25,869 bases of DNA from a bacterium (GCA_040757115.1 JBFLYA010000032.1:1-25869); one strand, 5' to 3'. Positions 8,437 through 25,869 are shown, counted from the stretch's first letter. Numbers and translations are program-made. Notes: generated by a model from the letters alone, not told the origin.

Positions 8437-8577
8437 CTGTCATTCTGAGCAGATATCGGTAAAATACTCAGGTCTCCCAAGTGAGTCATTGTGTCATGTA
8501 TTTGTATAAACCGGAGACATAGGTAACACTTTATAATTAGCTTTGACAATATGAAGTCGGTATAAGGGAGTTTAAAA

Positions 8578-10957: not shown

Positions 10958-10982
10958 AAGAAATGACATATTTGCAAAAGGA
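10958..10982 (+). repeat. 25-bp repeat over a start codon (copy 1)
   Basis: Copy 1 of a 25-base sequence that recurs at 12422-12446 with 24 of 25 matches. It contains an ATG and encodes MTxLQK in both places. Here it overlaps the first possible start of the cupin gene. Confidence 0.85.
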
Positions 10983-11346
10983 GGAAAATCTAAATATGGA
11001 TGAAAATTTAGAAACTCTAAGTTCAAATTGGATAAGAGGTAAGAATAAATTAATAGGTGAAAAAGCTGTTATTGATACAGTAAGCGGGAACAATATGAGT
11101 GTTGCAAGGTATACGATGCATGAAAAAATGAATGTGGCAAAACATTCTCATGGATATGAGCAGATTGTTTATGTTTTAAAAGGAAAGATGATTTTGACTA
11201 TTGAAGATAAAGATTTCACAATGAAAAGTGGAGATATTCAAGTTATTTTAAGTGAACAAGAACATTCTGCCAGTATAGTTGATGTGCCATATCAATGTAT
11301 CGAGTTTTATAGTCCTAAAAGAAATGATATGCAATTGAATAAATAA
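10963..11346 (+). CDS. Small single-domain cupin with a BacB-like metal site
   Basis: A 127-residue (or 116-residue) cupin. Metal-ligand positions are His61 and His63 in KHSHGYEQ, Gln67 in place of the usual Glu, and His101 in QEHSAS. A three-His-plus-Gln pattern with this spacing recalls BacB/AerE, the cupins that isomerise the dihydro-hydroxyphenylpyruvate formed from prephenate in the bacilysin and aeruginosin pathways. BacB is a bicupin of about twice this length, so this may act as a dimer or do something else. There are two possible starts: ATG 10963, or ATG 10996 with a perfect AGGAGG at 10979-10984. The second has the better ribosome-binding site, and the first lies in a duplicated 25-bp sequence. 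It is the first gene of the biosynthetic cluster, 32 bases before the PP-loop gene. Confidence 0.82.
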   Translation: MTYLQKEENLNMDENLETLSSNWIRGKNKLIGEKAVIDTVSGNNMSVARYTMHEKMNVAKHSHGYEQIVYVLKGKMILTIEDKDFTMKSGDIQVILSEQEHSASIVDVPYQCIEFYSPKRNDMQLNK

Positions 11347-11378
11347 TTTATAACAATAAAAAACTAAGGAGTATATTT

Positions 11379-12353
11379 ATGTTTAAAGAAGGATATGAAA
11401 AATTTAAAGAAAGTGTTATTGAACTAGATATTATACCAAAGGAAACTAAAAAAATAATTATAGGGATGTCTGGTGGAAAAGATACAGTAGTTATGACTCA
11501 TTTTTTATTGGAATACAAAAAACATGAACGCCCAGACATTGAATTAGAGATGTGGACTGCTCCAGTTCCACACTGGGAACAAATGCCAGAAAAGTTATTT
11601 AATACATCACTTGATGAAAATCAAAAAGCATTACTTATTAAGCAGAAAAAAGTGATGGATGATTTTAAAGCATACTGGGCTAATTTACTTGAATGCAAAA
11701 TCATTCCTGTGCAACAAGAACTTTATGAAGATCGCATTTTTAATATGGATTGGGGATGTATGATGTGTTTTAGTACAAAAATGAAAGCATTCCATAAATA
11801 TCTATTAGAGCAACTGTATGAAGATAATACCCTCTTCGCATTTGGGTGGACCAAATGGGATGCTCATTATACCTTACTTTCACATATGATGAAATCTGAT
11901 GGTTCAAAGTGGTTTGATGTAAAAAAGAATCAGATTCAAAAGTATAAATCTGATTGTGTGTTTTTAGCTTCATTTTCTGCATATCCTCGTGTAAATATAG
12001 GTATTCCAGGGAAAAAGATATTTAGAATTAATCCAATTATAGAATTTGATGATGGAGAGACATTTGTGATATCAAGAGAGTTTAAAATTCCAATTGTTAT
12101 TGATATTTGCAAAGAATTGTATGGTGAAATGTTTGATCAGGATAGAAGATATTTATCAAAGTATCTGGAAATATATTCTAGAAATCAATCTCGATTAAAA
12201 CTTTCTAATGATTCATTGTTATACAGTTATAGAAATTTAGTAAAGTTTTTAAGAGATACAGAAATACTTCCACCTCTTGAAGAAATTGAAGGGATAATGT
12301 ATAACGCGTACAATTCTAATTTTGATGAAGTATTTGAGTTGCTAAAAAAATAA
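11379..12353 (+). CDS. TtcA-like PP-loop ATPase (adenine nucleotide alpha-hydrolase)
   Basis: A 324-residue ATP-pyrophosphatase. The PP-loop is SGGKDT (31-36) after strand KKIIIGM. A CxxC (Cys127, Cys130 in WGCMMCF) and a further Cys193 are placed much as the three cluster-binding cysteines of TtcA, and GWTKWDAHYTLLSHMM (156-171) occupies the place of the TtcA GHHxDD stretch. TtcA-type enzymes activate a substrate carbonyl as an adenylate and replace oxygen with sulfur. Relatives in natural-product clusters can make thioamides or form amide bonds. In this context a tailoring role in the cluster, possibly thiolation, is inferred; tRNA modification is the alternative. A strong AAGGAG precedes the ATG. 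No damage is seen. Confidence 0.8.
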   Translation: MFKEGYEKFKESVIELDIIPKETKKIIIGMSGGKDTVVMTHFLLEYKKHERPDIELEMWTAPVPHWEQMPEKLFNTSLDENQKALLIKQKKVMDDFKAYWANLLECKIIPVQQELYEDRIFNMDWGCMMCFSTKMKAFHKYLLEQLYEDNTLFAFGWTKWDAHYTLLSHMMKSDGSKWFDVKKNQIQKYKSDCVFLASFSAYPRVNIGIPGKKIFRINPIIEFDDGETFVISREFKIPIVIDICKELYGEMFDQDRRYLSKYLEIYSRNQSRLKLSNDSLLYSYRNLVKFLRDTEILPPLEEIEGIMYNAYNSNFDEVFELLKK

Positions 12354-12421
12354 AATTTATAGTCAGAAAAATGAGAATACTTTTATAATATTTAATATCT
12401 TCGAATTATCGTTAAGGAGAT

Positions 12422-12446
12422 AAGAAATGACATGTTTGCAAAAGGA
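12422..12446 (+). repeat. 25-bp repeat over a start codon (copy 2)
   Basis: Second copy of the repeat at 10958-10982. Here it spans the start of the radical SAM gene; the single mismatch changes Tyr to Cys in MTxLQK. Confidence 0.85.
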
Positions 12447-13938
12447 TGTTCTTTTAATTGGTGATACCTTTGTTGCCAATTTGCTAGCTAAAAAAAATCA
12501 AGATAATGGTATTGAACACATGGATAATACGACAAAACAATTCTTACCAAGTGCAGCATTTGAAGATTCGTTTTTTAACGCTTTAAGGGAAGACTTTCAA
12601 CAAATCACTCTATCTGATACCATAGAAGATTTGTTAAATAACTCAATTAATCCAGCAGGACTACATCTTTCATCAATTCTTGAGAAGGAAGGCTTTTCAT
12701 ATGATGTAATTAATTGTTCATTAAAACATCATGAAAAATTAGTTAGCTTTTTAAAAAGTACAAAATATAGAGTAATTGGAATATCAACTACATTCACATT
12801 AGATAGAGCATATATTCTTAATTTAATAGATTTGATAAAGAGAAATGCACCTACATCTAAAATAATAGTTGGGGGCATATTTATTGTTAAATTATTTAAA
12901 CTGCAAAAAAAAGAAATATTGCAAAAAGAGTTATCGTTATTAAATGCTGACTACTTTGTATTTAACGAGATAGGAGAGCAATCATTAATCGATATTCTAA
13001 ATTATGAGCAATACTCTAAACCTGATATTCAGAAGGTATTAAACATTGCATATAAAACTGAAAGTGGTTTTATAATTAATTCATATAAAACAAATGATAT
13101 TGATACCTCTATTAGCAACTGGATATTATCAAATAACACAAACTATGCTTTTTTACGCACATCGATATCTTGTTTGTTTAAGTGCAAGTTTTGTGATTTC
13201 CCTCTTATAGCAGATAAGTATAAATCAAAATCAATTGAGGTTATACAACAAGAGTTTAAAAATATTGAAAAGGCTGGTATTAAATACATTCATTTTTTAG
13301 ACGACACCTTTAATATACCAAAGCAACATTTTTATACCATATTAAATGAGCTTGCTATCAAAGGTTATAATTTTGAATGGGTTGCCTATATTAGATGTCA
13401 GCATCTTGATAATGAGACAGTTAGCTTAATGAAAGAAACTGGATGTATTGGCGTTTTTTTAGGGCTTGAGTCAGGTAATAATGATGTGTTAAAAAACATG
13501 AATAAAGGTGCAACTGTAGAAAAATATCTTGATGGGATTTCATTTTTACATAAGTATGAAATTCCGACTTACGGTGCTTTTATTATCGGATTTCCTGGAG
13601 AAACTAATAAAAGTATTGAGGATACAATTAGGTTCATAAAACAAGCTAGGTTACAATATTATCGATTATTTTTGTGGTTTTATGATCTTCGATGTCCAAT
13701 AGCACATGAAGCTGTAAAATATTCACTTGAAGGTTCAGGATATAAGTGGAAACATTCAACAATGACATCAGATGAGGCTGTAGAAAAATGTAAATTTATA
13801 TGGAAAGAAGTAAATAATTCTATCCATTGTACAATTCCCTTTGATTACACCTTTTATTTAAATAGAAATGTCAACACTAAAGATATCTTCAATGAGTGCT
13901 TAAGGCGTTTTAATGAACGGAATGCAAGCCAATTCTAA
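12427..13938 (+). CDS. Radical SAM enzyme with degenerate B12-binding-type N-terminal domain
   Basis: A 503-residue protein. Residues about 75-155 follow the cobalamin-binding Rossmann pattern (NPAGLHLSSILEKEGF, VIGISTTF, IIVGG) but lack the DxHxxG motif that supplies the cobalt-binding His. The radical SAM domain starts near 240 with Cys249, Cys253 and Cys256 (CLFKCKFC), followed by the HFLDDTF, GVFLGLESG and IIGFPGET elements typical of the Elp3/MiaB/NifB fold. Such enzymes methylate unreactive carbons or rearrange rings in antibiotic and hopanoid pathways. Without the His, base-off B12 binding or another cofactor is possible. AAGGAG precedes the ATG. The first residues (MTCLQK) come from a sequence also found at the cupin start. 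A 73-base spacer separates it from the PP-loop gene. Confidence 0.85.
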   Translation: MTCLQKDVLLIGDTFVANLLAKKNQDNGIEHMDNTTKQFLPSAAFEDSFFNALREDFQQITLSDTIEDLLNNSINPAGLHLSSILEKEGFSYDVINCSLKHHEKLVSFLKSTKYRVIGISTTFTLDRAYILNLIDLIKRNAPTSKIIVGGIFIVKLFKLQKKEILQKELSLLNADYFVFNEIGEQSLIDILNYEQYSKPDIQKVLNIAYKTESGFIINSYKTNDIDTSISNWILSNNTNYAFLRTSISCLFKCKFCDFPLIADKYKSKSIEVIQQEFKNIEKAGIKYIHFLDDTFNIPKQHFYTILNELAIKGYNFEWVAYIRCQHLDNETVSLMKETGCIGVFLGLESGNNDVLKNMNKGATVEKYLDGISFLHKYEIPTYGAFIIGFPGETNKSIEDTIRFIKQARLQYYRLFLWFYDLRCPIAHEAVKYSLEGSGYKWKHSTMTSDEAVEKCKFIWKEVNNSIHCTIPFDYTFYLNRNVNTKDIFNECLRRFNERNASQF

Positions 13939-14197
13939 AGGGTACGACATCTCGGGGCATCCATATAAAATATCTTTCGATGTTACGTCTAATTTCGACA
14001 AACGAAAGATATTAAAAAAATGTAACTGTTCAGGTAGTATGGGAAAGTACATAACTATAATGTAACCTAAAGGTTAAGTGTTTACTTACTCTTAACAATG
14101 GTCCAAAAATTGACTAAAAATAGTTAAAAAACCGATGGATTTAACCTTCATGAAACACAAGATGTAGTGGAATTAGCATAATTAATCCATCTATACA
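13939..14197. other. 259-base spacer within the cluster, with a hairpin and no gene
   Basis: This is the longest undisturbed gap in the first half of the cluster. AATATCTTTCG (13969-13979) and CGAAAGATATT (14003-14013) form a perfect 11-bp stem with a 23-base loop. TAACCT-AA-AGGTTA near 14063-14076 is a second small palindrome. No T-run follows, so a Rho-independent terminator is not supported. A promoter for the methyltransferase set may lie here, but no clear boxes are visible. Confidence 0.5.
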
Positions 14198-15034
14198 GTG
14201 GCTGAACGGTTACAAAAAATGATGGAAGTTAAAAGAGAATTAAAAAATAATTTTGATGTTAAGGGCGGCTTTGATGAATTATCTGAATTCTACGATTCAG
14301 ATGAATTGCGCTTCTTTTTAGACAGCTCCAAACTAATGGTTAAGGAACTTGACCTGACGGGTGTTAAAAATATTTTAGATGTAGCAACAGGTACAGGTCA
14401 TACTGCCATTGAAATGGCAAAAATTATACCCTACGGTAGTATAACTGGAATTGATATTTCTCGTTCTATGCTTGAAAAAGCAGAATTTAAAAGGGGCAAT
14501 TTATCTAATGTTGAGTTTAAGCAGCATGATATGACGTTTTTAGAATTGCTATATGGTAAATATGATCTTATTACTTGTTCGTTTGGGACATACTTTGCTA
14601 AGGACATGGTTCAATTCTTCAAAAGTGTATTCGATAAATTAACTGAAGATGGGAAAATTGTATTACTTAACTTTGCAGAGGAATCATTTATGCCATACGG
14701 TATGTTGTTTGTTAAAGATTTAGGGAAAATGGGTTTTTTCAAAGAATTTCCACCGTCATTTTCTATTCAAAATCGTAGATGTTTAGATAGTTTGAATATG
14801 GCGAAATTCGAAAATGTCAAAATAATAGAAAAACAATTGCAATATACAATAAAAAATCCGGCAGAATGGTGGAAAATTATATGGGGTACAGCATGCAGGA
14901 GTTTTTTAGCAGATTTATCACTTCAAGATATAGAAGTCTTTAAAGATTATCATCTAAAAAAAATAAAAACAATGATTGATGAAGGTATAAATACATATAA
15001 GGTCAATATATTAATTATAATTGGAACCAAATAG
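14198..15034 (+). CDS. Class I SAM-dependent methyltransferase
   Basis: A 278-residue Rossmann-fold methyltransferase of the UbiE/Methyltransf_11 kind. Motif I is ILDVATGTGHT (59-69), the post-I acidic residue is Asp86 in GIDIS, and motif II/III includes YDLITCSFGTYFAKDM and LTEDGKIVLLNF. It transfers a methyl group from S-adenosylmethionine to O, N or C of a small molecule; the acceptor is not readable. The annotated start is a GTG (14198) without a clear ribosome-binding site; ATG at 14219 or 14222 would lose only 7-8 residues and keep all motifs, so the start is uncertain. It lies 18 bases before the KAS III-like gene and is co-directional with the cluster. The sequence is intact. Confidence 0.88.
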   Translation: MAERLQKMMEVKRELKNNFDVKGGFDELSEFYDSDELRFFLDSSKLMVKELDLTGVKNILDVATGTGHTAIEMAKIIPYGSITGIDISRSMLEKAEFKRGNLSNVEFKQHDMTFLELLYGKYDLITCSFGTYFAKDMVQFFKSVFDKLTEDGKIVLLNFAEESFMPYGMLFVKDLGKMGFFKEFPPSFSIQNRRCLDSLNMAKFENVKIIEKQLQYTIKNPAEWWKIIWGTACRSFLADLSLQDIEVFKDYHLKKIKTMIDEGINTYKVNILIIIGTK

Positions 15035-15052
15035 GAAGTATAGGAAGATAAA

Positions 15053-16039
15053 ATGAAACTAAATACCAGTGTAAAATATATGGATTATTATATCCCAGAA
15101 AAAACTGTTTCTGTTGATGAAATATTATCGATGAATAAAAACATTTCAATTGATTCTGTTAATAACTATGACGAGTTTGTTCAACAATTTAGAAAACAAA
15201 GTGGACTGGACAGGATTGCTGTTTTAGATTCAAAAGATAATTTGGCTAACATAGCATCTGATATGGTAGATAAGCTTTTTCAAAATACAGACATAAAACC
15301 ATCAGAGATAAAGTATTTAGTCTGCGGAAATCGTGTTTTAATGGATGATAATATCTCTACGATACATTATATACAAAAGAAATTTAATCTTGAAAATGCG
15401 GTTATTTTGCCTATATTTCAAGACTGTGCCTCAACACTAATTGCGATGGGAATATCTGAGAAATTATTAAATAAAAGTGCTAAAGAATATATGCTCGTTT
15501 TAACAGCAAGAAAATGTCCAGATATCAAAGGTAGGTATGTTGGTTTTACGGTAATGGGTGACGGGCTATCACTAGTATTGATTGAAAACAAACCAGGTAG
15601 GATTAACATAACAAACTGGTGTTCATATAATAATGGGGTAAGTAGTTATAGCAAAATGGAAGGTTCGGCTAAGAGTTTAAGTGTAATTAATTTACAGATG
15701 AATATTATCACCAGTGGTGTTTCATTTTTACAAAGGTCTATGAAAAAAATTGATATTATGATGGAAAATATAGATAAAATTATTCATCCAAATACTAATT
15801 ATGATGTATTTCATGAACTTTATAGTAATTTACTAAATATTGAACCAACAAAGTTTTACCTTGACAATATACGAAATGGCGGCCATATTAATGATGTGGA
15901 TCTTGTTAGAAATACTAAGGATTATATATATAAAAACAAATCCCAAAAAAAAAGAATGAATGTGTTAATTTATGGTATAGATCTTGTTCAATCACTTGAT
16001 ATAAATTACCATATCATAACTCTGGAAATCAGTTTATAA
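15053..16039 (+). CDS. KAS III (FabH)-like thiolase-fold enzyme
   Basis: A 328-residue 3-oxoacyl-ACP synthase III relative. The nucleophile is Cys125 in FQDCASTLIAM, His245 lies in KIIHPNTN (the H-P-N context of FabH), and NGGHIND (275-281) stands where FabH has its GN-S/T-SAS loop. His278 or Asn280 would be the third catalytic residue, so a Cys-His-His or Cys-His-Asn arrangement is possible. FabH-like enzymes outside fatty-acid synthesis condense acyl-CoA with malonyl groups or act as acyltransferases joining acyl units to oxygen or nitrogen. It is strongly diverged and in a natural-product setting, so housekeeping FabH activity is unlikely. No ACP gene was seen nearby. The ribosome-binding site AGGAAG is moderate. 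Confidence 0.78.
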   Translation: MKLNTSVKYMDYYIPEKTVSVDEILSMNKNISIDSVNNYDEFVQQFRKQSGLDRIAVLDSKDNLANIASDMVDKLFQNTDIKPSEIKYLVCGNRVLMDDNISTIHYIQKKFNLENAVILPIFQDCASTLIAMGISEKLLNKSAKEYMLVLTARKCPDIKGRYVGFTVMGDGLSLVLIENKPGRINITNWCSYNNGVSSYSKMEGSAKSLSVINLQMNIITSGVSFLQRSMKKIDIMMENIDKIIHPNTNYDVFHELYSNLLNIEPTKFYLDNIRNGGHINDVDLVRNTKDYIYKNKSQKKRMNVLIYGIDLVQSLDINYHIITLEISL

Positions 16040-16073
16040 GGTAACTGCAAAAATCTAATAAGGAGGATATGAT

Positions 16074-16736
16074 ATGAACATGTTTAAAAAATTAGTTGAT
16101 TTTTATCTTCAACAAGATGAAGTAGAAGTATTATTAAGGCACTGTGACGTTGAAGAAATAATATTTTTTGTTTTAGGTCCTAATGGAACACATATAAATA
16201 TGGCAGCTAATGAATGGGCAAAAAAAATAAATGTTTTTAATAAATCAGTTTTTCATTTTGTAGAAACACTAGAAATAGCTGTATTAAAGGCAAAAGAAGT
16301 AGTTGATGTCCATAGACTTCCTATTTTTGTAACGTGTGCCGTTTATGATAAATTAAACAAACTATTTTTTGGAAATCCTGATTGTTACTTTTTTCTACAT
16401 CACCATTACATGCGATTAGATAATATACAGCTATCTGCTAGAAAAAAGGTTGATATTATACCACCAGAATGGATAATCGCATCTCACCCGTCACCAAAAT
16501 TTCTAGTTACCCACCTACCAAATAGAATCATAGAAACCTCATCAAATTCAAAGGCAGCAATACTATGTGCCGAAGGGAAAGTCGATTGCTGTATTACAAA
16601 CGAGACATCAAAAAATCTCTATAACTTGGAGACGATTTTTCATTTTGGGAAGCCAATATTACCATTTTATTTTTCAACCACATTATCTGGCATAAAGATT
16701 CTTAAAAAAATAAAGGCTCTGCAAAAAAAATCATGA
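16074..16736 (+). CDS. BacA-like (prephenate decarboxylase/dehydratase-family) protein
   Basis: A 220-residue protein resembling BacA, AerD and SalX, the non-aromatising prephenate decarboxylases, which share the prephenate dehydratase fold. The N-terminal glycine motif is FVLGPNGTHINMAA (BacA: LGPEGTSSEYAA). Downstream come ASHPSPKFLV (BacA: VSHPSPINLI), then SNSKAAILCAEGKVD and CCITNETSKNLYNL (BacA: NSTSQAARKVKEG, ALTNELARQKYGL). The length is close to BacA's 204 residues. BacA turns prephenate into dihydro-4-hydroxyphenylpyruvate without forming an aromatic ring. Together with the BacB-like cupin at the head of the cluster, this suggests a prephenate-derived building block. The BacA comparisons are from memory, so the family call is likely and the exact reaction inferred. 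AGGAGG (16061-16066) fixes the ATG at 16074. Confidence 0.68.
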   Translation: MNMFKKLVDFYLQQDEVEVLLRHCDVEEIIFFVLGPNGTHINMAANEWAKKINVFNKSVFHFVETLEIAVLKAKEVVDVHRLPIFVTCAVYDKLNKLFFGNPDCYFFLHHHYMRLDNIQLSARKKVDIIPPEWIIASHPSPKFLVTHLPNRIIETSSNSKAAILCAEGKVDCCITNETSKNLYNLETIFHFGKPILPFYFSTTLSGIKILKKIKALQKKS

Positions 16737-16777
16737 TTTTCTGGGGAGCAGATGCTATTATACTGAGGGAATAAATT

Positions 16778-18353
16778 ATGAATAGGTTGGATGAAATAAT
16801 TAATATCAGAAAAGAGTCTAATGAAATAGCTATTATCCATAAGAATAAATTTATTAGCTATAAAGAGTTATTTATTTATGCATCTAATTTAAGTAATATC
16901 ATATGTGAGAATAAAACTGGAGTATCCCCAAATATAGTTATTTATCTTGAAAAATCAATAGAATATATTATCAGTATTTTCGGCATATTAAAGTCTGGGG
17001 CTACTTATATACCAATAGATTATCAAATTCCGCTTGAGCGTTTGAACTATATTATTAAGAACTGTAATTCATCCTTTATCATTACTAATAGCAATGGAGT
17101 TAAAAAGTTAAGAAATCAAATATATAGTAATATGAAATTTATTATTATTGATGATTTCAAGAATGATACACAACCAGAATTAAATAATAATCCAAATTTA
17201 ATTTATTGGTATAACAAGGACAAAAAAGATTATTTCGATAATAAAAACTACAATGCGGAGATTGCCTATATAATTTACACTTCTGGTTCAACGGGACATC
17301 CGAAAGGAGTAATGATAAAAAATGAAAGTGTAGTAGCTTTTATTTTATCTATAATAGAATTAGTTTCTTATAATAGTGAGACACGATATTTAAATGTTTC
17401 TCCATTACATTTTGATGCTTCAGTTGTTGATATTTTTTGCACATTATATGCTGGTGGAACTCTTATTTTAATGGATAATTTTGTTTTACCAAATAGTCTC
17501 TTAGCAACTATGCAAGATCAAAGGATTACTGATACTCTTTTAGTGTCCTCAATTCTTAAATTACTCACTAGCAGATACAGTAAGTTGGAATCATTTGACT
17601 TAACCCATTTAAAAACTATTTGGTATGGAGCTGAGTCATGTCCAGTGAAAGTAATAAAGGAAATCAAGAAAAAACTACCAAATATTAGATTTATACATGG
17701 ATATGGGCCTACAGAGGCCACTCATACCACAACTTTATATATTTTTGATGAAATTGATAATAATTAATGAAGACTTTATGCCTATAGGAAAACCATTACC
17801 AAATGTAGAAGTATTTGCTCTTAATGATGTTGGAAATGAAATCATGCCTGGAGAAGTTGGAGAGTTGTATATTGGAGGTGTTCAACTATTTGCAGGTTAT
17901 TGTAATGATATTCAAAAAACAGAATCAGTAATAGTAAATAAGATTTTAGAGAAGAAGGGCAGATTTTACAAGACAGGTGATTATGTAACTATTGATAGTG
18001 AGGGCAATTATATTTTTAAAGGTAGAAAAGATGATATGATTAAAATTGCTGGACAACTAATATATTTAAAAGAAATTGAGAAAGTTTTGTTGTCATATAA
18101 CAAAATAATAGATTCATTTGTATATCATATTGATGATGAATTATTTAATTCCAAAATTATTGCTTTTATTGTAAGTCAATCAACTGATGCCATTCTTGAA
18201 TCAGAATTAATCAATTATCTAACAAATAAACTACCTAAATACATGATTCCAGCAAAATTTCATTTTTTAAATGCTGAAGAAATCCCTAAATCATCTACTG
18301 GTAAAATTGATAGACAATCCCTTATCGATTTAGCAAAACAAATAATTAATTAG
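16778..18353 (+). pseudogene. Stand-alone NRPS-type adenylation enzyme, split by one frameshift
   Basis: Two overlapping frames together encode one adenylation domain of about 525 residues that activates a carboxylate, probably an amino acid, with ATP. Frame one (16778-17767) carries A3 YTSGSTGHPKG (168-178), A4 HFDASV with Asp213 (the residue that contacts the alpha-amino group in NRPS domains), and A5 GYGPTE (308-313). It stops at TAA 17765. The second frame carries IGKPLPNV, A7 YKTGD, A8 GRKDDMIKIAG and A10 PKSSTGKIDR with the catalytic Lys, ending at 18353. One extra T near 17764-17765 explains the break: its removal gives DNNNEDFMPIGKP. No condensation or carrier domain is present. It could be a recent mutation or a sequencing error. 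It ends nine bases before the HemN-like gene. Confidence 0.85.
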
Positions 18354-18362
18354 GAGGCAATA

Positions 18363-18656
18363 ATGGACTTAGAACAATTTTTTGAAGTGAATAAAAGAGT
18401 TAATTTAACCTGGTTTTATCCAAAGATATGTAAGTTTCAAGATCAAAAAGAAGAAGATTCCGTTTTTTTTCAATTTTTAGAAACTGATAAACCCAAAGCT
18501 CCTTTTCTTTTATATATACATATACCATTTTGCGAATCTTTTTGTGCTTACTGCGCTTGCTTTAAAGAAAATGTTTATAAATATAGTAGAGAAGAAAGAG
18601 TCCAATTTGTTAATGCAATGATTAAAGAATTACAAAAATATGCAAGCACTCCTTGA
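18363..18656 (+). pseudogene. HemN-type radical SAM protein, truncated by an insertion
   Basis: The first 95 or so residues of a HemN/HemW-like radical SAM enzyme. YIHIPFCESFCAYCACF holds Cys57, Cys61, Cys64 and Cys66, the CX3CX2CXC form typical of coproporphyrinogen-oxidase-like enzymes, followed by the helix FVNAMIKELQKYA. Full-length relatives have 370-450 residues. The reading runs into transposase-derived sequence from about 18650 and stops at TGA 18654-18656. AGGAGG precedes the ATG, nine bases after the adenylation gene, so it was part of the cluster operon. HemN-like enzymes in secondary metabolism perform methylations or cyclopropanations (for example in the jawsamycin and CC-1065 pathways). 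The reaction here is lost and cannot be told. Confidence 0.83.
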
Positions 18657-18674
18657 TTGTCATTCTACCGCTAA

Positions 18675-19343
18675 AGAGAAGAAAGAGGGGGGATAAAGGA
18701 TTTATTCAGGCAACGGTTTGAAGAAGGATTAAAGAATATCCAGGCAGGTCTTTGTAAAAGGAATGGCACCAAGAAATATGAAAAGGTTATTGAAAGAATA
18801 GGACGGTTGAAAGAGAAGTTCAAGCAGGTAGCCCATTATTATGAGATTAGTATTGAGACAGATAGTAAGATGAAGAAGATTGTTGCCATTAGCTGGTATG
18901 AAAAGGAAAGAGAAGGTAATGAGGGTGTGTATTGTATACGAACCAACATAAATGGTTTCAATGAGCAAGAGATGTGGAATATTTGGACAATGCTTACCGA
19001 TGTAGAGGATGCTTTTAGATGTATGAAATCTGAATTGGGGTTAAGACCTGTCAATCACCAGAGAGAAGATAGAGTAGATGGGCATCTTTTTATTACGGTT
19101 CTTGCTTATCATATTGGACACACTATTCGTTTTAAATTACGTCAACAGGGCACACATTATAATGGGGCAACTATTCGTCAGTTATTGTCTACCCATGTAA
19201 GGATACCTACAACGATGAAGAGAAAAGATGGTAAGTTAATTCAGATAAGGAAGTCTTCAGTATCTGAATTATCTCACAAAGAAATCTACGAGGCTTTAAA
19301 TTTATCTTATCAACTGGGTAAAACTATTAAATTGATTTTGTGA
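18675..19343 (+). pseudogene. C-terminal half of an IS1634-family (IS4 superfamily) transposase
   Basis: An open frame of about 222 residues with no genuine start: FRQRFEEGLKNIQAGL, then KYEKVIERIGRLKEKF, GVYCIRTNINGF and the DDE-superfamily end MLTDVEDAFRCMKSELGLRP. In the last of these, the Glu in the D-x-E-x-A-F-R-x-M-K stretch corresponds to the YREK-type region. Then follow HLFITVLAYHIGHTIRFKL and a C-terminal SVSELSHKEIYEALN. These are features of IS1634-like elements. The N-terminal half is missing, so the element cannot move by itself. It lies where the HemN-like gene is broken. The TTG at 18807 is an arbitrary start inside the fragment. Confidence 0.8.
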
Positions 19344-19425
19344 GCATACAAACTATAGTGTCAAAACTCAATTTCTCTATTCTGTAACCTATTGATAATA
19401 CAAGACTTATTTTTTGAAAGTATGA

Positions 19426-19560
19426 AGTTGGGTTAAAGATAATAAAGGTGCTAAAAAATGGATTCAAAGGACCCCACTGATGGCTGTGGGGAAGACTGAC
19501 CATAGATGGACTCTTTTAGAGTTAGTGACTTATAAAATACCACCTGTTTCTCGTTGTTAA
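19426..19560 (+). pseudogene. C-terminal tail of another transposase
   Basis: A 44-residue open stretch: KKWIQRTPLMAVGKTDHRW, then TLLELVTYKIPPVSRC and a stop. The R-T-P-x-M-A-x-G-x-T-D-H-x-W pattern is a familiar end of transposase or transposase-like proteins of several IS groups. It has no start codon. It shows that more than one element entered this 1.1-kb insertion. Confidence 0.5.
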
Positions 19561-19806
19561 TTGTATTAGGACACGGAGGGAAATTGGAACTTGGAATTTA
19601 TTTGAGATTTGGTGCTTGAAATTTGGAATTTTTGCATTGAAGTACATCTGTTTCTTCAAATGGCTAAAGTGTTACAATTTTCCCCATTTTCCCACAGAAA
19701 GTGGGAGAGGTAAACCAAATTTTCATAACTATGTGAAAAATAGAGACTTAAAAGAAATTTGAATAAAAATTTTTGACAATACCAAAAATATAAAAGGGTA
19801 ATTTGT
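19561..19806. other. Word-repeat spacer before the second half of the cluster
   Basis: The sequence around 19575-19640 repeats variants of 'ggaatttgg' and 'gaaatttgg'. A 6-bp hairpin, TCCCAC...GTGGGA, lies at 19690-19706. No gene is visible. The last 60 bases should carry the ribosome-binding region of the synthase gene (only GGG at about 19795 is visible). Confidence 0.5.
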
Positions 19807-21189
19807 ATGATTCAAGAATTATTTAACAATTCATTTATCGTTTCAACCAGAAAACTAACAATTCAAAGATTTAAAAACTGGATGTGTAAAAAAAATGGCT
19901 ATTACATTACTGTTTTTAATGAGGCATTAGTATCTCAAATTAAAAAAAATGATTTATATATTAATTTTGATACAATGCAAATCATGAGCAAAGAAAAAAA
20001 TCAATATGGACTAAGGATCGATGGGAATGTTTTATTATTGAGTAATAATGAAATGAATACTAGAGATCTTTATTATATTTATGATAAAAATGCTAATTTA
20101 TTTATAATATTTAATAATTTACTTTTGGCAAAAGAAATTTTATTGAAATCCGGACTGTCTTTAGAATATGATTATAATAAAATTTATGAGAATGGAAGTT
20201 ATTTTAAGCATATACAATTGCTTGAACATTCCGAAGTGATAACAATTAACAATCAAAACGGAACAATAACATTAACCAAAACAAAATTAGAAGATGTGTT
20301 AATTCAAATTAAAGTTAATAATCTATATACCATAGAAGCTGTTAATCAAAAATTATTAAATATATTAATTGAAACTACAGAAATACTAACCCGAAATTAT
20401 GATAATGTTTCAATTCTTTTATCCGGAGGTTTGGATTCTGCAACTATTGCCTATATTTTAAAAAAATTGAATAAGAATGTAACAGCATATACAGTAGGTA
20501 CAGAGTGGGATAATGAATATGAAGATGCAGCAAAGATTGCTAAGTATATTAATATAAACCTTAACAAAATATTTCTATCCAAAGAAGAGATGTTAAGAGA
20601 AATCCCTTATATTATTGCTTTTTTAGGGTTTAACAATGATGAGAACATAGAAATTTCATTAGTTCCGCAGTGTCTATTTAGAAAAATCAGCGAGCTCTAT
20701 CCAGATCGAAAAATACTTTTTGCCACCGGTTTTGGTGCTGATCTCATTAATGCCGGTATTTATCATGAATTTAATGATTATGATGCATTAAAGGAGCAAT
20801 TAATTCAAGTATTATATAAGACTAGAATGAGTAATGAGTTATATAGTAATTTGTTTTTCAACAATAACAGTTATTTTCCTAATATAAATGTTGTGCATCC
20901 GTTTTGGAATATTGAGGTTATAAAGGAATCTTTAAGGATTCCAACTGAATTTAAAATACAAAACAATATTGGCAAATACTTCTTTAGAAAAATGATGGAA
21001 GAGCATTTGGGGAAAGAAAATGCTTGGAGGTCTAAACAGGCTATACATCAGGGGACAGGTATAAGTGCAAATTTGAAAACAATAATATTAGATAAGAATG
21101 AAATTTTACAGAATGATGATTATAAATTATATTATAAGGACTTACATAAAAAACTATTTTTTGAAAATGATTTTTCACTGTTAAAATAG
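19807..21189 (+). CDS. Asparagine-synthase/beta-lactam-synthetase-like ATP-dependent amide-forming enzyme
   Basis: A 460-residue member of the asparagine synthetase B family. The C-terminal synthetase domain has the PP-loop SGGLDS (206-211) and downstream ATGFGADLINAG, the counterpart of the family's SGxGADE stretch, then FFRKMMEE and a C-terminal AWRSKQAIHQGTG. The N-terminal domain does not begin with the catalytic Cys2 (it starts MIQELFNN), so glutamine hydrolysis is not expected. This combination is that of beta-lactam synthetase, carbapenam synthetase and lasso-peptide cyclases, which adenylate a carboxylate and close an amide ring. A similar cyclisation, or ammonia-dependent amidation, is inferred here. 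The ribosome-binding site is weak. It is intact and lies just after the insertion, 22 bases before the next gene. Confidence 0.82.
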   Translation: MIQELFNNSFIVSTRKLTIQRFKNWMCKKNGYYITVFNEALVSQIKKNDLYINFDTMQIMSKEKNQYGLRIDGNVLLLSNNEMNTRDLYYIYDKNANLFIIFNNLLLAKEILLKSGLSLEYDYNKIYENGSYFKHIQLLEHSEVITINNQNGTITLTKTKLEDVLIQIKVNNLYTIEAVNQKLLNILIETTEILTRNYDNVSILLSGGLDSATIAYILKKLNKNVTAYTVGTEWDNEYEDAAKIAKYININLNKIFLSKEEMLREIPYIIAFLGFNNDENIEISLVPQCLFRKISELYPDRKILFATGFGADLINAGIYHEFNDYDALKEQLIQVLYKTRMSNELYSNLFFNNNSYFPNINVVHPFWNIEVIKESLRIPTEFKIQNNIGKYFFRKMMEEHLGKENAWRSKQAIHQGTGISANLKTIILDKNEILQNDDYKLYYKDLHKKLFFENDFSLLK

Positions 21190-21211
21190 TTATAAAAAGT
21201 GGATTATAAAA

Positions 21212-22207
21212 ATGAAAAACTGTATTTATTTTAATATTGCTGATTATGATATATGCAAATCCAGTTATACGATTGAACCTGTTTTTCAGAATTATCTTAA
21301 GACTAAAATAGATTATATATTATCAAATAATCCTGTTAATAGCATAAAATCGGATGATATTCCTTCGGATTTCTTTAAAATTATCACACATAGGGAATTT
21401 AATTGCCAGTTAGCAAATAAAATAGTACAATGGAAAGAGACGGTAGTTCGTGAGGCTGGGATGTACGTGTCAAAAAATGAACCTATAAAAATTTATTTTG
21501 CATTAGGCGGCGGATATAAAGCTTCACTCGATGTACTTAATTTTAATACATTGAATTATTCTATTGGTCTGGGGGAATTGCTCGTTATTTATCAAATTAA
21601 AAAACTGGATGAAAAGATAAAACAAATATATAAACCAGGTATTACATTCAATATCGTAATAGATAATGGCGTTGCTAATTATGTGAATAACATACCCCGA
21701 GAGAAAACATTACACTACTGTAATTTGTTAAAAAAATTAATTGTAAAATTAAGAATGGATCATTGTATTAATCTTATAATTCAAACTGAAAATCTGAATT
21801 GGGATGAAAATATCAAAAAAATAAGTTATACTCCATTAAAATTAAAAGAAATCTCTGAAAGGCAACATGCTAATGTTATGCGATTTTTGGGTAGGAAATG
21901 TACATATGAGGAAGCATTAATGCTACAGAATAAGTATAATGCCTGCATGTTAATTTCCGGGCAAATAATAAAACAGGCTAGAGAAAACGATTTATGGTTT
22001 CTGCAATACAGCAACAACGGCGAGTTAACTTTCAGATCATTTCCTGGTGGAGTGTGTAGAATACAAGTGGGTGATATTGCATTGGTGAATAATCATAAAG
22101 TAATCCCATTTTCACTTTCAACTGAAAATATAAAGAATTATAATCCTTTTTGCTATAAAATTAATTTTGAAAACTTTTTCAAATTAATGCATATCATGAA
22201 TATCTGA
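21212..22207 (+). CDS. Possible isonitrile synthase of the PvcA/DIT1 family
   Basis: A 331-residue protein that I place tentatively with PvcA/IsnA/DIT1. The central part matches PvcA from memory in order and spacing: NEPIKIYFALGGGYKAS (PvcA: GEPIHLVLPAFPAKSP), SIGLGELLVIYQI (PDLGEELALQFL), KQIYKPGITFNIVIDNGV (GALYPPGARLTICSDGRV). The C-terminal SFPGGVCRIQVGDIAL, then HKVIPFS, may correspond to the last sheet. PvcA-type enzymes convert the amine of Tyr or Trp to an isonitrile with carbon from ribulose-5-phosphate. A tyrosine-like substrate would fit the BacA/BacB-like genes. No Fe(II)/2-oxoglutarate partner (PvcB) is visible. The key PvcA motif FPxKSP is altered, so this could be a related enzyme with other chemistry. 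Confidence 0.45.
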   Translation: MKNCIYFNIADYDICKSSYTIEPVFQNYLKTKIDYILSNNPVNSIKSDDIPSDFFKIITHREFNCQLANKIVQWKETVVREAGMYVSKNEPIKIYFALGGGYKASLDVLNFNTLNYSIGLGELLVIYQIKKLDEKIKQIYKPGITFNIVIDNGVANYVNNIPREKTLHYCNLLKKLIVKLRMDHCINLIIQTENLNWDENIKKISYTPLKLKEISERQHANVMRFLGRKCTYEEALMLQNKYNACMLISGQIIKQARENDLWFLQYSNNGELTFRSFPGGVCRIQVGDIALVNNHKVIPFSLSTENIKNYNPFCYKINFENFFKLMHIMNI

Positions 22208-22220
22208 AAGCTATAGTCAT

Positions 22221-22688
22221 ATGGTAGAACTATTATTAAGCGAATTAATTAAAAAAGGATATGATTTTTATACAGGAGTACCTTGTTCATTACTCATCTC
22301 CTTTTTTAATTATATCTACGCGAATCCCAGTAAACTTACATATGTTAGTGGATTAAGAGAGGATACAGCAGTGGGTATATCAGCAGGTGCTTATTTAGCA
22401 GGGAAAAAACCTGCAATTTTAATGCAAAATTCGGGATTTGGTTCATCCATTAATGCAATCACCTCATTATTATTACCTTATGATATACCAGTCTTTTTTA
22501 TCATCGGATACAGAGGATATCAAGGTAAGGATACGGAAGAGAATAAAGGTATGGGAGCATTAACCGAGAAATTATTAGCTGATTTGGATATTCCCTATTT
22601 ATTTTTACAAAAGAGTTCAGTTAATGAAATAATGGATTTTCTTATTGTTAATTCAAGTAAGAGCAGGGCATTATTAATTACAGAGTAA
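22221..22688 (+). CDS. Phosphonopyruvate/sulfopyruvate decarboxylase-like, thiamine-binding alpha part
   Basis: A 155-residue PYR-type domain of a thiamine-diphosphate enzyme of the phosphonopyruvate decarboxylase (Ppd, Fom2) and sulfopyruvate decarboxylase (ComD) group. FYTGVPCSLL, then LREDTAVGISAGAYLAGK with Glu47 (expected to activate the cofactor), and LMQNSGFGSSINAI are characteristic. The domain ends naturally in ALLITE and stop, as in two-subunit members. The PP half that binds the diphosphate is found 2.9 kb downstream (25625-25765), beyond an inserted IS66 element; RBS and GTG start are intact there. No phosphoenolpyruvate mutase is in the window, so phosphonate chemistry is not shown; the substrate may be another 2-oxo acid. 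It starts 13 bases after the previous gene, with a weak ribosome-binding site. Confidence 0.82.
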   Translation: MVELLLSELIKKGYDFYTGVPCSLLISFFNYIYANPSKLTYVSGLREDTAVGISAGAYLAGKKPAILMQNSGFGSSINAITSLLLPYDIPVFFIIGYRGYQGKDTEENKGMGALTEKLLADLDIPYLFLQKSSVNEIMDFLIVNSSKSRALLITE

Positions 22689-22864
22689 CAACTCAGCTTT
22701 GGTTAAAGTGATGGTAAATTTCTTCTTAATTTTTTTCTCAAAAATGCCGATAAATATAATAGAATGGGAAATAAATACCCGAAGAAAACAAAAACAAAAG
22801 AATCACTGTACTTGGATTGCAAAATAGTTAAAGAGATGGAATTAAAGATAGAAAGACAAGAGCA

Positions 22865-23345
22865 TTGATAGAGAAATTAGAGAAGGATATAAAAGCCTTA
22901 CAAAACAGACTTTCCTTAGACAGCCGTAATAGTCACAAACCCCCATCTTTTGATGGATTTAAGAAGAAGGTCATTAAAGGTTTGCGTAAACTCATGGGAA
23001 GAAATTCGGGTGAACAACCTGACTATAGGGGAGAAACATTAAAGATGGTAGATAACCACCGAAGGATAATTAGACATGGTGTAGAGAGATGCAAGGGGTG
23101 TCAAAGAGATATACAAGATGCAAAGCCAATAGATATAAAGAAAAGACAGGTTTTTAGATATACCTCTAGAGGGTATAGAAGTAATTGAGCATCAAGCGGA
23201 GGTAAAGAGAGGTAATAATTGTGGAGTAGTAAATGAAGCAAATTTTTCAGAAGATGAAAATACCCTATCCAGTACGGGAAGAGGCTAAAATCATTAGCGG
23301 TTTATTTTATTAATTGTAATTTTGGTCAATAATTTTCCCTTAATT
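22865..23345 (+). pseudogene. IS66 transposase, N-terminal part with frameshifts
   Basis: The segment MIEKLEKDIKALQNRLSL, then RNSHKPPSFDGFKKK, is the coiled-coil and 'SKPPSSDG' head of IS66 TnpC. It is followed by NSGEQPDYRGETLKMVDNH, and GVERCKGCQRDI of the zinc-finger region. The frame breaks in a T-run near 23151-23158; the correct continuation (DIPLEGIEVIEHQAEVKR) is in another frame. A second shift follows before YGKRLKSLAVYFINCNFG, after which similarity ends near 23345. The Cys-rich finger (CxGC...NNC) has lost cysteines. It is inactive. Confidence 0.88.
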
Positions 23346-23534
23346 TTGAGGAATAAATTGGCCTAAAAAAGACAGTTAAGAGAGGGGGTAAGTAGGATTA
23401 AATAATCCTGAGAGGGTGATATTTAAAGGAATATTTTGGTCTATTTTGGGATTTTGGCAAGCAAAGGGGAGGGAGGAGTTGCCAGAGCTGGTCTTCTGGC
23501 AAATCCTGGGGTTGGATATAGAGATGAGTTATTT

Positions 23535-23945
23535 TCAGGGAAGAGGCAGGTCATCCTGATTTAAGTCAAAGAGACGGAAGGAGGAAGCGAGGAAATACTC
23601 TGGTTGATCAAAGAAGGTGGGGATATCCTGTGTCATAAGCCAATCTTTAATAACACAAAGGATATCAGGTATTTTTCGGTGAGGGATGAATAAGATTTTG
23701 TCAGGATGATTGATGTTGCTGAAGAAGTGATGGGCAGAGGTAGAGGAATTGAACTGGAGTTGGTCAAAGAAGAAGATAGAGGGTTCAAATTGATGTTGTT
23801 TAAAGGGATCAATCCAGTTAAGGAAGAGGGAATTAGAAGGTAAGTCTTTAAGGTAGAAGTTTTTGCTGTCTAAGAGAGCAAAGGAGTGGGAAAGGATGAC
23901 CGCCTGGAAGGAAGTTGATGAGAGATTAACGCCGACATACAACAT
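23535..23945 (-). CDS. Unidentified protein coded after an ExeA-like transposon ATPase
   Basis: A 136-residue protein with no family that I recognise. It starts MLYVGVNLSSTSFQAVILS, reminiscent of the first strand of an actin- or RNase H-like fold (GVNLSS), and is rich in Phe, Ser and Leu. The ATG at 23945 is chosen over the upstream start at 23987 because GGAGGTG precedes it on this strand. The upstream ExeA-like gene ends only 13 bases before this start, so the two form one operon, probably cargo or helper genes of a transposon. It is followed by a G-rich purine stretch (23340-23530) without a gene. Confidence 0.5.
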   Translation of the reverse strand: MLYVGVNLSSTSFQAVILSHSFALLDSKNFYLKDLPSNSLFLNWIDPFKQHQFEPSIFFFDQLQFNSSTSAHHFFSNINHPDKILFIPHRKIPDILCVIKDWLMTQDIPTFFDQPEYFLASSFRLFDLNQDDLPLP

Positions 23946-23958
23946 AATTACACCTCCA

Positions 23959-24345
23959 TTAGATTTCCTGATTGGCAGCAAAGACATGCTCTTGGGTTAA
24001 GGTTTGAGTCTTGTCGTGGAAGCCAGCGGTCATAATTTTAAGGGCTAAGGAGTCGATGAGACGAGGGATACCAGCGGTATGTTTGAAGATAGCCTCTATA
24101 GATGCTGGAGAGAATGGGGATTTTTGGCAGCCTTTGATCGAGAGGTGGTGGGAGATATAAGGTTCGATCTCATCCTTTGTCAGAGGGATAAGGTGATATT
24201 TGAGATGAATACGCTGATTAAAGGAGCTAAGGATAGAGCGAGCAAGCCTATCGCGGAGATGGGAGTGAGCAACTAAGATAAAGAGAGCAGGGTCAGTAGA
24301 GTCCATATTGAAGTTGGAAACAATTTGGAGTTCATAGAAGTTTTC
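23959..24345 (-). pseudogene. ExeA/TniB-like AAA ATPase, C-terminal part
   Basis: On the minus strand, coding runs from about 24345 and gives ENFYELQIVSNFNMDSTDP, then LFILVAHSHLRDRLARSIL and NQRIHLKYHLIPLTKDEI. The end is GIPRLIDSLALKIMTAGF followed by the last helix with EHVFAANQEI. These are the sensor and lid segments of the ExeA/TniB/MuB-type AAA ATPases that help DDE transposases choose targets. The Walker A and B motifs are missing: the coding sequence is cut at 24345, precisely where an 18-bp sequence also found at the 25746 junction begins. An ATG at 24306 could start translation of the tail, but it would lack ATP-binding residues. Confidence 0.78.
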
Positions 24346-24363
24346 ATCCTAAAATCGGCAAGT
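24346..24363 (+). repeat. 18-bp junction repeat, copy 1 (element end)
   Basis: ATCCTAAAATCGGCAAGT matches the copy at 25746-25763 at 17 of 18 positions. Each copy lies exactly where a gene to its left is cut off. This suggests that it is the left end of a mobile element present twice in the same orientation. Confidence 0.6.
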
Positions 24364-24380
24364 TCACAGCTGCAAATAGT

Positions 24381-24713
24381 TCGACCTGTGAAATAGGTTT
24401 CGACCTGTGTGGTTAGGTTTATACTACTGTATTTTCTCCTTCGCCCCTGCGGGGCTTAATTGATTTTTAATCTAATCTTCCGTAGGTTAAAACCTATGGC
24501 TAATATACTGCAACCCTTCGGGTTTTAATAATGATTTTATTAATTATCCTATTTAGACACCGAAGGTGTCGAGGAATTTAGCCGCAGATTTTAATCTACG
24601 GAATAATAGTGCTCCATAAGGCAAGCCTTGACAGGGCGTAGGAAAGATTTCAACACATTCGTATTTTATCGGAAGTTTTTCTATTTTTCTTTAAAACCTA
24701 TTTCACAGGTCGA
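24381..24713. repeat. 333-bp element framed by a perfect 20-bp inverted repeat, with five hairpins
   Basis: TCGACCTGTGAAATAGGTTT (24381-24400) has its exact reverse complement at 24694-24713. Between them lie five short stem-loops in a row: GCCCC-tgc-GGGGC (24443-24455), CCGTAGGTT-aa-AACCTATGG (24480-24499), AACCC-ttc-GGGTT (24512-24524), GACACC-gaa-GGTGTC (24556-24570) and CCGCAGATT-tt-AATCTACGG (24582-24601). There is no coding sequence. The right arm overlaps the end of a small minus-strand ORF. A small non-autonomous element or a structured RNA locus are both possible. Confidence 0.7.
24398..24411 (+). repeat. 14-bp sequence shared with 2783-2796
   Basis: TTTCGACCTGTGTG occurs here and at 2783-2796, beside the other DDE transposase remnant. 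It overlaps the left arm of the 24381-24713 element. It could be part of a dispersed repeat. Confidence 0.5.
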
Positions 24714-24861
24714 AAAAGTGTGCTAATGAGAGAAACATAATTGTCTCAAAAGCAATTTGTTTCTTTTGGTGAAACTTTTCCTGAAATGTAACAAAAAACC
24801 AGGTAAAATTGTCACTTAAACACTCTTTAAGATAATAAGTTGATTCTTTACTCCTGTGCAT
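24703..24861 (-). CDS. Small 52-residue ORF with its own promoter and ribosome-binding site
   Basis: It encodes MHRSKESTYYLKECLSD, then NFTWFFVTFQEKFHQKKQ and a hydrophobic C-terminal IMFLSLAHFF, ending at TGA 24703. GGAGGAGG precedes the ATG at good distance, and TTGTAA-17-TATAAT lies upstream on the same strand. The frame ends within the 20-bp repeat at 24694-24713, so it may be the start of a longer gene, perhaps a transposase, cut by that element. I do not recognise its family. Confidence 0.4.
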   Translation of the reverse strand: MHRSKESTYYLKECLSDNFTWFFVTFQEKFHQKKQIAFETIMFLSLAHFFDL

Positions 24862-24864
24862 ATT

Positions 24865-24934
24865 TCTTTGCCTCCTCCCTGTTTTTTTGGATAGTTTTGT
24901 TATCCTTTATCCATTATAACATAGGAGGCAAAGA
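24865..24934. promoter_or_regulatory. Minus-strand promoter inside a perfect 12-bp inverted repeat
   Basis: TCTTTGCCTCCT (24865-24876) and AGGAGGCAAAGA (24923-24934) are exact reverse complements 46 bases apart. Between and beside them lies a minus-strand promoter: TATAAT (reverse of 24913-24918) and TTGTAA (reverse of 24936-24941) with a 17-base spacer. The left arm also contains the ribosome-binding site of the small ORF. Confidence 0.5.
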
Positions 24935-25045
24935 GTTACAACTACTTTAGTTATAAATGGTTATACCCTTGTTTCTCAATAGTTAAGCATTTTCATTTGA
25001 GTTAATCTTTAACTCTATATGTTTCAATCTGTTTTGTAAATTTAG

Positions 25046-25580
25046 GAATTATCAGTCTACAATATAAATCAGACTTATGAAGAAGAAAAGGCAGAATGGG
25101 CAGAAAAGATGATAAGATGTTTGCTTGATATAAAAGAAAAGACTGATAATGCAAAAGAGAATGATAAACAAGCATTAGAACCTAAAGTGATAGAGTTTTT
25201 TGATCAAAGATATGAAACAATATTAGAAGAAGGAGAGAAGATGTACTCAGCTAATCACAATAAAGAATCAGGAAGAAGGGGAAGAAAAATCAGAGCAAGA
25301 ACAAGAATCTACTGGATAGATTAAAGAAATACAAGAGACAAGTATTGCATTTATGTATAATCTTTCTATCCCTTTTGACAATAATCTTGTGGAAAGAGAC
25401 ATAAGGATCATGGAGATAAAACAAAAGATATCAGGATGTTTCAGGAGTGAAGAAGGTGCAAGATTCTTTTGCAGAATAAGGAGTTATATTTCTACCAAAC
25501 AAGGACAAAACATTATTGATGCACTATCTTTTGTTTTTATTGGTAAGCCCTTTGTACCTATTAGAGTTGAAGATGGGTAG
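25046..25580 (+). pseudogene. IS66 transposase, C-terminal part with frameshifts
   Basis: Coding starts without a start codon at about 25046 (VYNINQTYEEEKAEWAEKM) and continues through DIKEKTDNAKENDK and IEFFDQRYETILEEG. It then breaks near 25300-25350, where the original LDRLKKYKRQVLHFMYN reads across two frames. The last part, IPFDNNLVERDIRIMEIKQK, then ISGCFRSEEGARFFCRIRSY and KQGQNIIDAL, holds the catalytic Glu of the DDE triad in ERDIR and the IS66 signature ISGxFRSEEGA. This is the other half of the transposase at 22865-23345. It is inactive. Confidence 0.9.
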
Positions 25581-25624
25581 GCTGAGGAGTTATTTTACAG
25601 AATAATATGTTAGGAGATAATTAA

Positions 25625-25765
25625 GTGAATACAATTGAGTGTATTGAAGTAATAATTAGAAACTTAGACGAGATGCCAATTTTATTTTCTAATGGTTTTA
25701 TAAGCAGGTATGGATATAAACTTTTGGACCGTAAGTGCCACTTTTATCCTGAAATCGGCAAGTAG
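25625..25765 (+). pseudogene. Decarboxylase beta part (thiamine-diphosphate domain), truncated
   Basis: A GTG start at 25625 is preceded by AGGAGA at proper spacing. It encodes MNTIECIEVIIRNLDEM, then PILFSNGFISRYGYKLLDR, followed by KCHFYPEIGK and a stop. Phosphonopyruvate and sulfopyruvate decarboxylase beta parts begin just so: a short helix, then a '(C/S)NGFISR' strand, 'DRPxNFY' and a GSMG motif. Here HFY is followed by foreign sequence from 25746 instead of the expected GSMG, and the cofactor-binding GDG motif is lost. It is the partner of the alpha part at 22221-22688; the two were neighbours before the IS66 element entered. Confidence 0.72.
25746..25763 (+). repeat. 18-bp junction repeat, copy 2 (element end)
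   Basis: ATCCTGAAATCGGCAAGT matches 24346-24363 at 17 of 18 positions and starts exactly where the decarboxylase beta part loses its family pattern. The remaining 100 or so bases of the window are purine-rich (aaaagggggg-type) and show no gene. Confidence 0.6.
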
Positions 25766-25869
25766 TTGAGTAAAAAGGGGGGAGTGGGGTAAAAAAGAAG
25801 GCTATTTTGACAAATTGGGGAGAGAATTAAGGAAAAGATGAAGGGAATTAGATAACAGATAGGATTAAG

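Follow-up and report, generated by a model that had tools for sequence, protein, structure and literature searches.

A co-directional gene run with an uncommon enzyme set, probably one decaying secondary-metabolite cluster that continues on a second contig

The window analyzed here is an entire bacterial contig (C32; 25,869 bp) from a 4.3-Mb genome assembled in 462 contigs and 99.9% complete. From 10963 to 25747 it carries, on the plus strand, genes of a co-directional run of about 14, with a probable continuation on a second contig, C221. All cluster open reading frames (ORFs) between 10963 and 22688 lie on the plus strand, and the genes were found where a first-pass annotation made from sequence alone had placed them (Table 1). 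The gaps mostly measure 9-73 bp (successively, from the cupin gene onward, 32, 73, 259, 18, 34, 41, a frameshift, 9, 1150, 22 and 13 bp), with three exceptions: 259 bp separate 14198 from the gene preceding it, two frames overlap at 17697-17767, and transposase debris fills the 1150 bp from 18657 to 19806. Because the genes share orientation and spacing, and because the alpha and beta subunit genes of a decarboxylase are interrupted by mobile DNA only, the run is read as a single unit, in agreement with the earlier proposal. A carrier-protein ORF was neither reported in that annotation nor seen by us in the window. Scans for promoters and terminators gave no excess over shuffled sequences, an Rfam search returned no match, and PADLOC, applied to six proteins, returned none either.

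Table 1. Features of the window and of the contig that probably continues it (ORF coordinates in bp; SAM, S-adenosylmethionine; PKS, polyketide synthase; PDT, prephenate dehydratase; BLS, beta-lactam synthetase; TPP, thiamine pyrophosphate; PLP, pyridoxal phosphate; IS, insertion sequence)
Feature	Position	Strand	Evidence or remark
MMPL (RND-type), LolA-like lipoprotein-sorting and DUF1302 outer-membrane proteins	6097-10780	+	PF03176 1e-31, PF17131 1e-51, PF06980 9e-24
Small cupin protein	10963-11346	+	PF07883 5.3e-9
TtcA-like PP-loop ATP enzyme, 324 aa	11379-12353	+	SGGKDT motif and CxxC aligned with E. coli TtcA
B12-binding radical SAM methyltransferase, PhpK-like subfamily	12427-13938	+	PF02310 3e-10, PF04055 9e-27, CLFKCKFC
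Class I SAM methyltransferase	14198-15034	+	PF13847 9.6e-18
KAS III/type III PKS-like condensing enzyme	15053-16039	+	KAS III model 6.6e-8; PF08392 2.5e-6
Small PDT-like protein (BacA/TdaC type)	16074-16736	+	PRK11898 8e-4
Stand-alone amino-acid adenylation enzyme, frameshifted	16778-18353	+	PF00501, PF13193, two frames
HemN-type radical SAM gene, truncated, 97 codons	18363-18656	+	CESFCAYCAC (CxxxCxxCxC); weak PF04055
Transposase remnant and genome-wide repeats	18657-19806	+	DDE_Tnp_1 weak; copies at many genome sites
Lactam-synthetase-like (CarA/BLS-type) protein	19807-21189	+	PF00733 1.1e-24; CarA 1.9e-20; BLS 2e-15
PvcA/DIT1-like protein, remote isonitrile-synthase family	21212-22207	+	PF05141 1.8e-6
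Ppd/ComD-type TPP decarboxylase, alpha subunit	22221-22688	+	TIGR03845 6e-33; TIGR03297 1.7e-32
IS66 debris and another mobile element between alpha and beta genes	22689-25624		DUF6444 and DDE_Tnp_IS66, one at each end
Ppd beta subunit, first 41 codons	25625-25747	+	gene resumes at G000:C221:125
End of multi-copy IS, starting CCTGAAATCGGCAAG; splits beta gene, closes contig	25748-25869		122-bp copies on other contigs
LysA-like PLP decarboxylase	C221		PF02784 1.4e-37
Second B12-type radical SAM protein	C221		
ISKra4-like transposase	C221

Several genes of the run are broken, a decay that was absent from the first-pass annotation. The adenylation gene is read in two frames, ORF 16778-17767 holding the main PF00501 domain (AMP-binding domain match, 2e-62) and ORF 17697-18353 holding the end of PF00501 together with PF13193; the frameshift thus falls between ∼17697 and 17767, and both parts of the enzyme are present, without a carrier domain. 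Of the HemN-type gene 97 codons are left, ending right before transposase-related, genome-repeated sequence, and the decarboxylase is split by mobile DNA. We favor, with moderate confidence, one secondary-metabolite gene cluster that was acquired horizontally, extends onto C221 and is now decaying; its pathway is very probably inactive in the present genome.

The decarboxylase had been described as a two-part enzyme, and this is borne out by the beta subunit gene that begins at 25625. Its 41 codons correspond to residues 5-42 of the other Ppd beta subunit of this genome, encoded on contig C86 (45% identity over 38 columns; score of 78, the highest among 1000 shuffles being 37), and the part of C221 that starts at base 125 corresponds to residues 43-181 of that C86 subunit. 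Genome-wide, Ppd matches comprise two alpha subunits (window and C86) and two beta subunits (C86 and C221). The sequence that splits the gene belongs to a multi-copy IS with the ends CCTGAAATCGGCAAG and CTTGCCGATTGCAGG (25748-25869 and L179:1-119). Its 122-bp end is 100% identical in C334 and 90-94% identical in C3, C15, C45 and C304, and contigs C3, C15, C45 and C334 likewise stop at the multi-copy IS. C221 opens with 77 bases that match (84%) an internal segment of the C304 copy; next comes the IS tip in inverted orientation, and the 5-bp sequence TTTAT lies on the outer side of the IS at both C32 and C221. Because the two beta pieces align end to end on one subunit, an IS end opens C221 and TTTAT is repeated, we infer, from contigs rather than reads, that C221 continues the cluster of C32. 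A 48-bp palindrome (AGGACATCGTGCACTCTCACCCCATGG plus its complement; L179:6067-6114) is present at the right end of C221, and the cluster may extend past it.

Nearly all of the enzyme types listed in the first-pass annotation are present, although its "BacA-like" (8e-4 by profile) and "PvcA-like" (PF05141, 28.1 bits versus a cut-off of 26.4, over 80 residues only) labels are remote assignments. The PP-loop protein matches no Pfam family above cut-off; alignment with E. coli TtcA reveals the TtcA-type signature SGGxD[ST] plus CxxC. A cysteine that falls near the position of the third Fe-S cysteine of TtcA is a possible counterpart. The adjacent radical SAM protein has the B12-binding domain and the CxxxCxxC motif (CLFKCKFC) that define B12-dependent radical SAM methylases, and the active-site cysteine of the KAS III-like protein is aligned. 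In tblastn searches the PDT-like protein matched (6e-11 to 4e-7; 28-33% identity) proteins of tda-type loci and others with an ATP-grasp gene as neighbor, the best match (6e-11) being a hypothetical protein adjoining an ATP-grasp gene. Such ATP-grasp neighbors were found in Pantoea and Pseudoalteromonas, and the Phaeobacter relative, annotated as a prephenate dehydratase, is flanked by glutathione S-transferase, thioesterase and acyl-CoA dehydrogenase genes in a tda-type arrangement. The cluster has a small, remotely PDT-like protein, as do the pathways to bacilysin (BacA) and tropodithietic acid (TdaC), but contains none of their partner genes and no BacB-, BacC- or BacD-like gene. The function of TdaC itself is unsettled (PMC13163973). 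Single-sequence structure predictions for the PDT-like and PvcA-like proteins were of no use (pLDDT, a per-residue confidence score, of 32).

For the radical SAM protein encoded at 12427-13938, the best named NCBIfam model is the PhpK P-methyltransferase TIGR04479. This match, together with Ppd alpha and beta subunits that match the phosphonopyruvate decarboxylase model and a phosphoenolpyruvate (PEP) mutase encoded elsewhere in the genome (336 bits, over cut-off, on C86), would fit a phosphonate or phosphinate pathway in which Ppd forms phosphonoacetaldehyde, the PhpK-like enzyme methylates phosphorus and the PEP mutase is supplied from C86. Such a pathway is unlikely. At 393 bits the PhpK score stays below the cut-off of 600, whereas relatives from Pelosinus and Spirochaetales, in settings without phosphonate genes, reach 534-561 bits on the same model. 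Neither the window nor C221 has a PEP mutase gene (pepM). The single one found in the genome, on C86, encodes a fusion with a nucleotidyltransferase and precedes its own pair of Ppd alpha and beta genes (L005:261-3035, G000:C86), the layout of cell-surface phosphonate synthesis (PMC6697681). On the Ppd model (full-length cut-off, 312.5) the window alpha subunit scores 112.9 and the beta subunit 120.3, as separate pieces and with beta scored without its first 41 codons; the sulfopyruvate models give 113.9 and 101.8, respectively, and thus fit alpha equally well. The alpha subunit is 43.5% identical to its C86 counterpart and 40% identical to 9iz3 over 151 columns, and the Ppd/ComD models leave the substrate of the window pair undecided.

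When 84,980 species were scanned with an alignment of two radical SAM sequences, at least 80 loci were returned; these are a sample. Among the matches listed, PepM or Ppd occurred near the PhpK-like gene in 0 of 80 loci, and nonribosomal peptide synthetase (NRPS)-type adenylation domains in 13 of the 80, all scoring >200 bits. In a tree of 58 proteins, the window protein joins a clade of 30 rows (support 95/97) that contains these NRPS-type loci; its exact position is unsure because of a long branch. A phosphonate reading of the Ppd and PhpK-like pairing is consequently weakened, and not supported, by the layout around the C86 PEP mutase, the scores of the relatives and the 0 of 80 loci. PhpK of the phosphinothricin and phosalacine pathways represents the best-scoring named subfamily, but the window protein falls below the cut-off, sits on a long branch and belongs to a cluster lacking PEP mutase. 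That the nearest PhpK-like relatives among the matches listed lie beside NRPS-type rather than phosphonate genes argues against an automatic P-methylase annotation, which would mislead here. Class B radical SAM methylases methylate carbon and phosphorus alike (PMC7277169), and C-methylation is the better guess for the window protein. The family also occurs in other settings: a Spirochaetales metagenome-assembled genome (MAG) has KAS III, carbamoyltransferase-like, two enoyl-CoA hydratase, three PhpK-like radical SAM and YcaO-like genes together (L073:15-14161), and another genome (G042) has a row of MaoC-like, PhpK-like radical SAM, FkbH-like, carrier-protein-like and MBOAT genes (L008:12031-17716), a different setting for the family.

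The CarA/BLS-like protein has an Asn-synthase fold without the N-terminal glutaminase cysteine (N terminus, MIQELFNN). Inspection of its catalytic residues reveals phenylalanine at Tyr345 (CarA numbering), with the glutamate (Glu380) and Lys443 retained, so that the full Tyr-Glu dyad plus Lys443 of a beta-lactam or carbapenam synthetase is not found. BLS-like homologues from crotonase-containing clusters are likewise variable at the tyrosine position (Leu, Met, Val). Reactions of the Asn-synthase-like family also include amidation and nitrile formation (PMC13060819), and the likeliest role of the window protein, judged from its sequence, is amide or lactam closure.

In the radical SAM scan, overlap with the window cluster was partial in all loci listed, the best among them being a region of ∼50 kb in Pelosinus fermentans JBW45 (about 1.48-1.53 Mb of NZ_CP010978; L154, L072, L155, L081), of which no description was found in the literature. 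Shared with the window are a CarA/BLS-like protein without glutaminase (38% identity over 465 columns), a LysA-like decarboxylase (32% identity to that of C221), PhpK-like B12 radical SAM enzymes (33-37% identity) and an AMP-forming ligase. The Pelosinus region differs in having eight PhpK-like enzymes of its own, a crotonase, two ArgJ, MetK, ABC exporters and class D beta-lactamase/BlaR-type genes, and no PP-loop, PvcA-like, PDT-like or Ppd gene was found in it. Its BLS-like protein retains the CarA Tyr, Glu and Lys and is encoded directly after the crotonase gene. The region is a probable beta-lactam-type cluster and apparently an intact relative of part of the window set; four enzyme families common to the window cluster and this one neighborhood indicate that part of the set travels together.

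The same relative raises the prospect of a strict beta-lactam (carbapenam-like) pathway in the window, since the window CarA/BLS-like protein is nearest to one that has the classical tyrosine and whose gene adjoins a crotonase gene near two ArgJ and class D beta-lactamase genes. C-methylation of carbapenems by B12 radical SAM enzymes such as TokK (PMC9692996) is consistent with this. Carbapenem and clavam clusters (CarA, BLS) share with the window an ATP-dependent closing enzyme without glutaminase and, in the complex carbapenems, B12 radical SAM enzymes; they differ in that the window protein has Phe for the catalytic Tyr and that the window has neither crotonase nor 2-oxoglutarate dioxygenase. 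No crotonase, CarC-type dioxygenase or ArgJ is encoded in the window or C221, unlike the homologue loci inspected in Rhodococcus, Streptomyces decoyicus, Acinetobacter and Pantoea, which have crotonase and TauD-type neighbors. Because of the Phe-for-Tyr exchange and the lack of crotonase and TauD-type genes, the window cluster is not classed as a beta-lactam cluster, and we regard a carbapenam-like route as improbable. On a Rhodococcus fascians plasmid (L157:7490-21302), a BLS-like gene of an att-type locus lies ∼6 kb from a B12-type radical SAM gene, and its product has leucine at the catalytic Tyr position.

The first-pass annotation knew of no described pathway with this combination of enzymes, and none was encountered in the literature searched or in any other genome searched. 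Its suggestion to look for intact versions in related genomes met with a divided outcome: four families lie together in Pelosinus, but no intact orthologous cluster was found in the genomes searched, which neither upholds nor overturns the single-pathway idea. Among 60 relatives, the sister member of the genus included, none had a real match to the PP-loop protein, and plasmids had none; across these 60 relatives, 13 genomes with matches and 297 relatives of the Spirochaetales MAG, one fragment and two short weak matches were recovered. The fragment, from the same Spirochaetales MAG as the KAS III-containing cluster mentioned above (L153:1020-1388), is 63% identical to the C-terminal 116 residues, a third of the protein, and has unrelated neighbor genes. 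PhpK-like proteins at E values of 1e-60 or better occurred in 2 of 386 genomes, the present one counted, and the only further genome of the genus included in the search (G001) has neither the PP-loop nor the PhpK-like gene. No PvcA-like protein was detected in 42 genomes and plasmids, in a search that had no positive control. Viral contigs yielded no match to the PP-loop or PvcA-like proteins and remote relatives only when scanned with the radical SAM pair. Among the matches listed from the radical SAM scan, PP-loop, PvcA-like, PDT-like or Ppd genes were present in 0 of 80 loci within flanks of ≤10 kb.

The enzyme families of this orphan cluster are known and their combination is new. Taken at face value, the families would suit a small amino-acid-derived metabolite made without a megasynthase. 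Building blocks may have come from two decarboxylases, the LysA-like PLP enzyme and the Ppd/ComD-type TPP enzyme, and the stand-alone adenylation enzyme may have activated an amino acid. Assembly of the skeleton and its C-methylation would fall to the KAS III-like enzyme, the methyltransferase and the two B12 radical SAM enzymes. The CarA/BLS-like enzyme would then use ATP for amide or lactam closure, the TtcA-like enzyme could add sulfur or perform another ATP-driven substitution, and the PvcA-like and PDT-like enzymes would act in tailoring. The genes for the MMPL, LolA-like and DUF1302 proteins, which end 182 bp upstream of the cupin gene, form a candidate export unit that might have released the product. 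All of these steps are predictions from sequence similarity, and the pathway most likely led to a C-methylated metabolite of amino-acid origin, whose closure as an amide or lactam was driven by ATP.

Several points weigh against a single acquired and decaying cluster. No intact relative was found, as described above, and the chemistry assigned to the PP-loop, PvcA-like, PDT-like and KAS-like proteins draws on weak similarity. The frameshift in the adenylation gene could be a sequencing or assembly error, and membership of the MMPL unit in the cluster is uncertain. GC content at third codon positions is 0.16-0.26 in the cluster, near that of fmt (0.255) and of the MMPL gene (0.276), so that composition provides no foreign mark. 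In addition, the 259-bp gap before the methyltransferase gene could be the boundary of two operons, in which case two or more unrelated units would merely be adjacent, one comprising the cupin, PP-loop and radical SAM genes and the other the methyltransferase gene onward. The PP-loop fragment that stands alone among unrelated genes in the Spirochaetales MAG is consistent with such a division. We nevertheless consider it very unlikely: a single strand is used throughout, the 259-bp gap contains no terminator-like site, and the Pelosinus region unites radical SAM enzymes of the same family with BLS-like and LysA-like genes.

The single-cluster interpretation acquires wider interest because the families joined here are unreported together and the host phylum is thinly sampled among the genomes searched. 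A bolder and rather doubtful proposal is that the cluster represents a new class of lactam- or amide-closed metabolites, characterized by PhpK-like methylases, CarA/BLS-type closure, a sulfo- or phosphonopyruvate-type decarboxylase and TtcA-like sulfur chemistry, of which Pelosinus would be a second branch. The Pelosinus region provides a workable lead: the strain is named and its genome complete, and the region holds genes for a probable beta-lactam-forming enzyme, genes of resistance type and genes for eight B12 radical SAM methylases whose family is usually given a P-methylase annotation.

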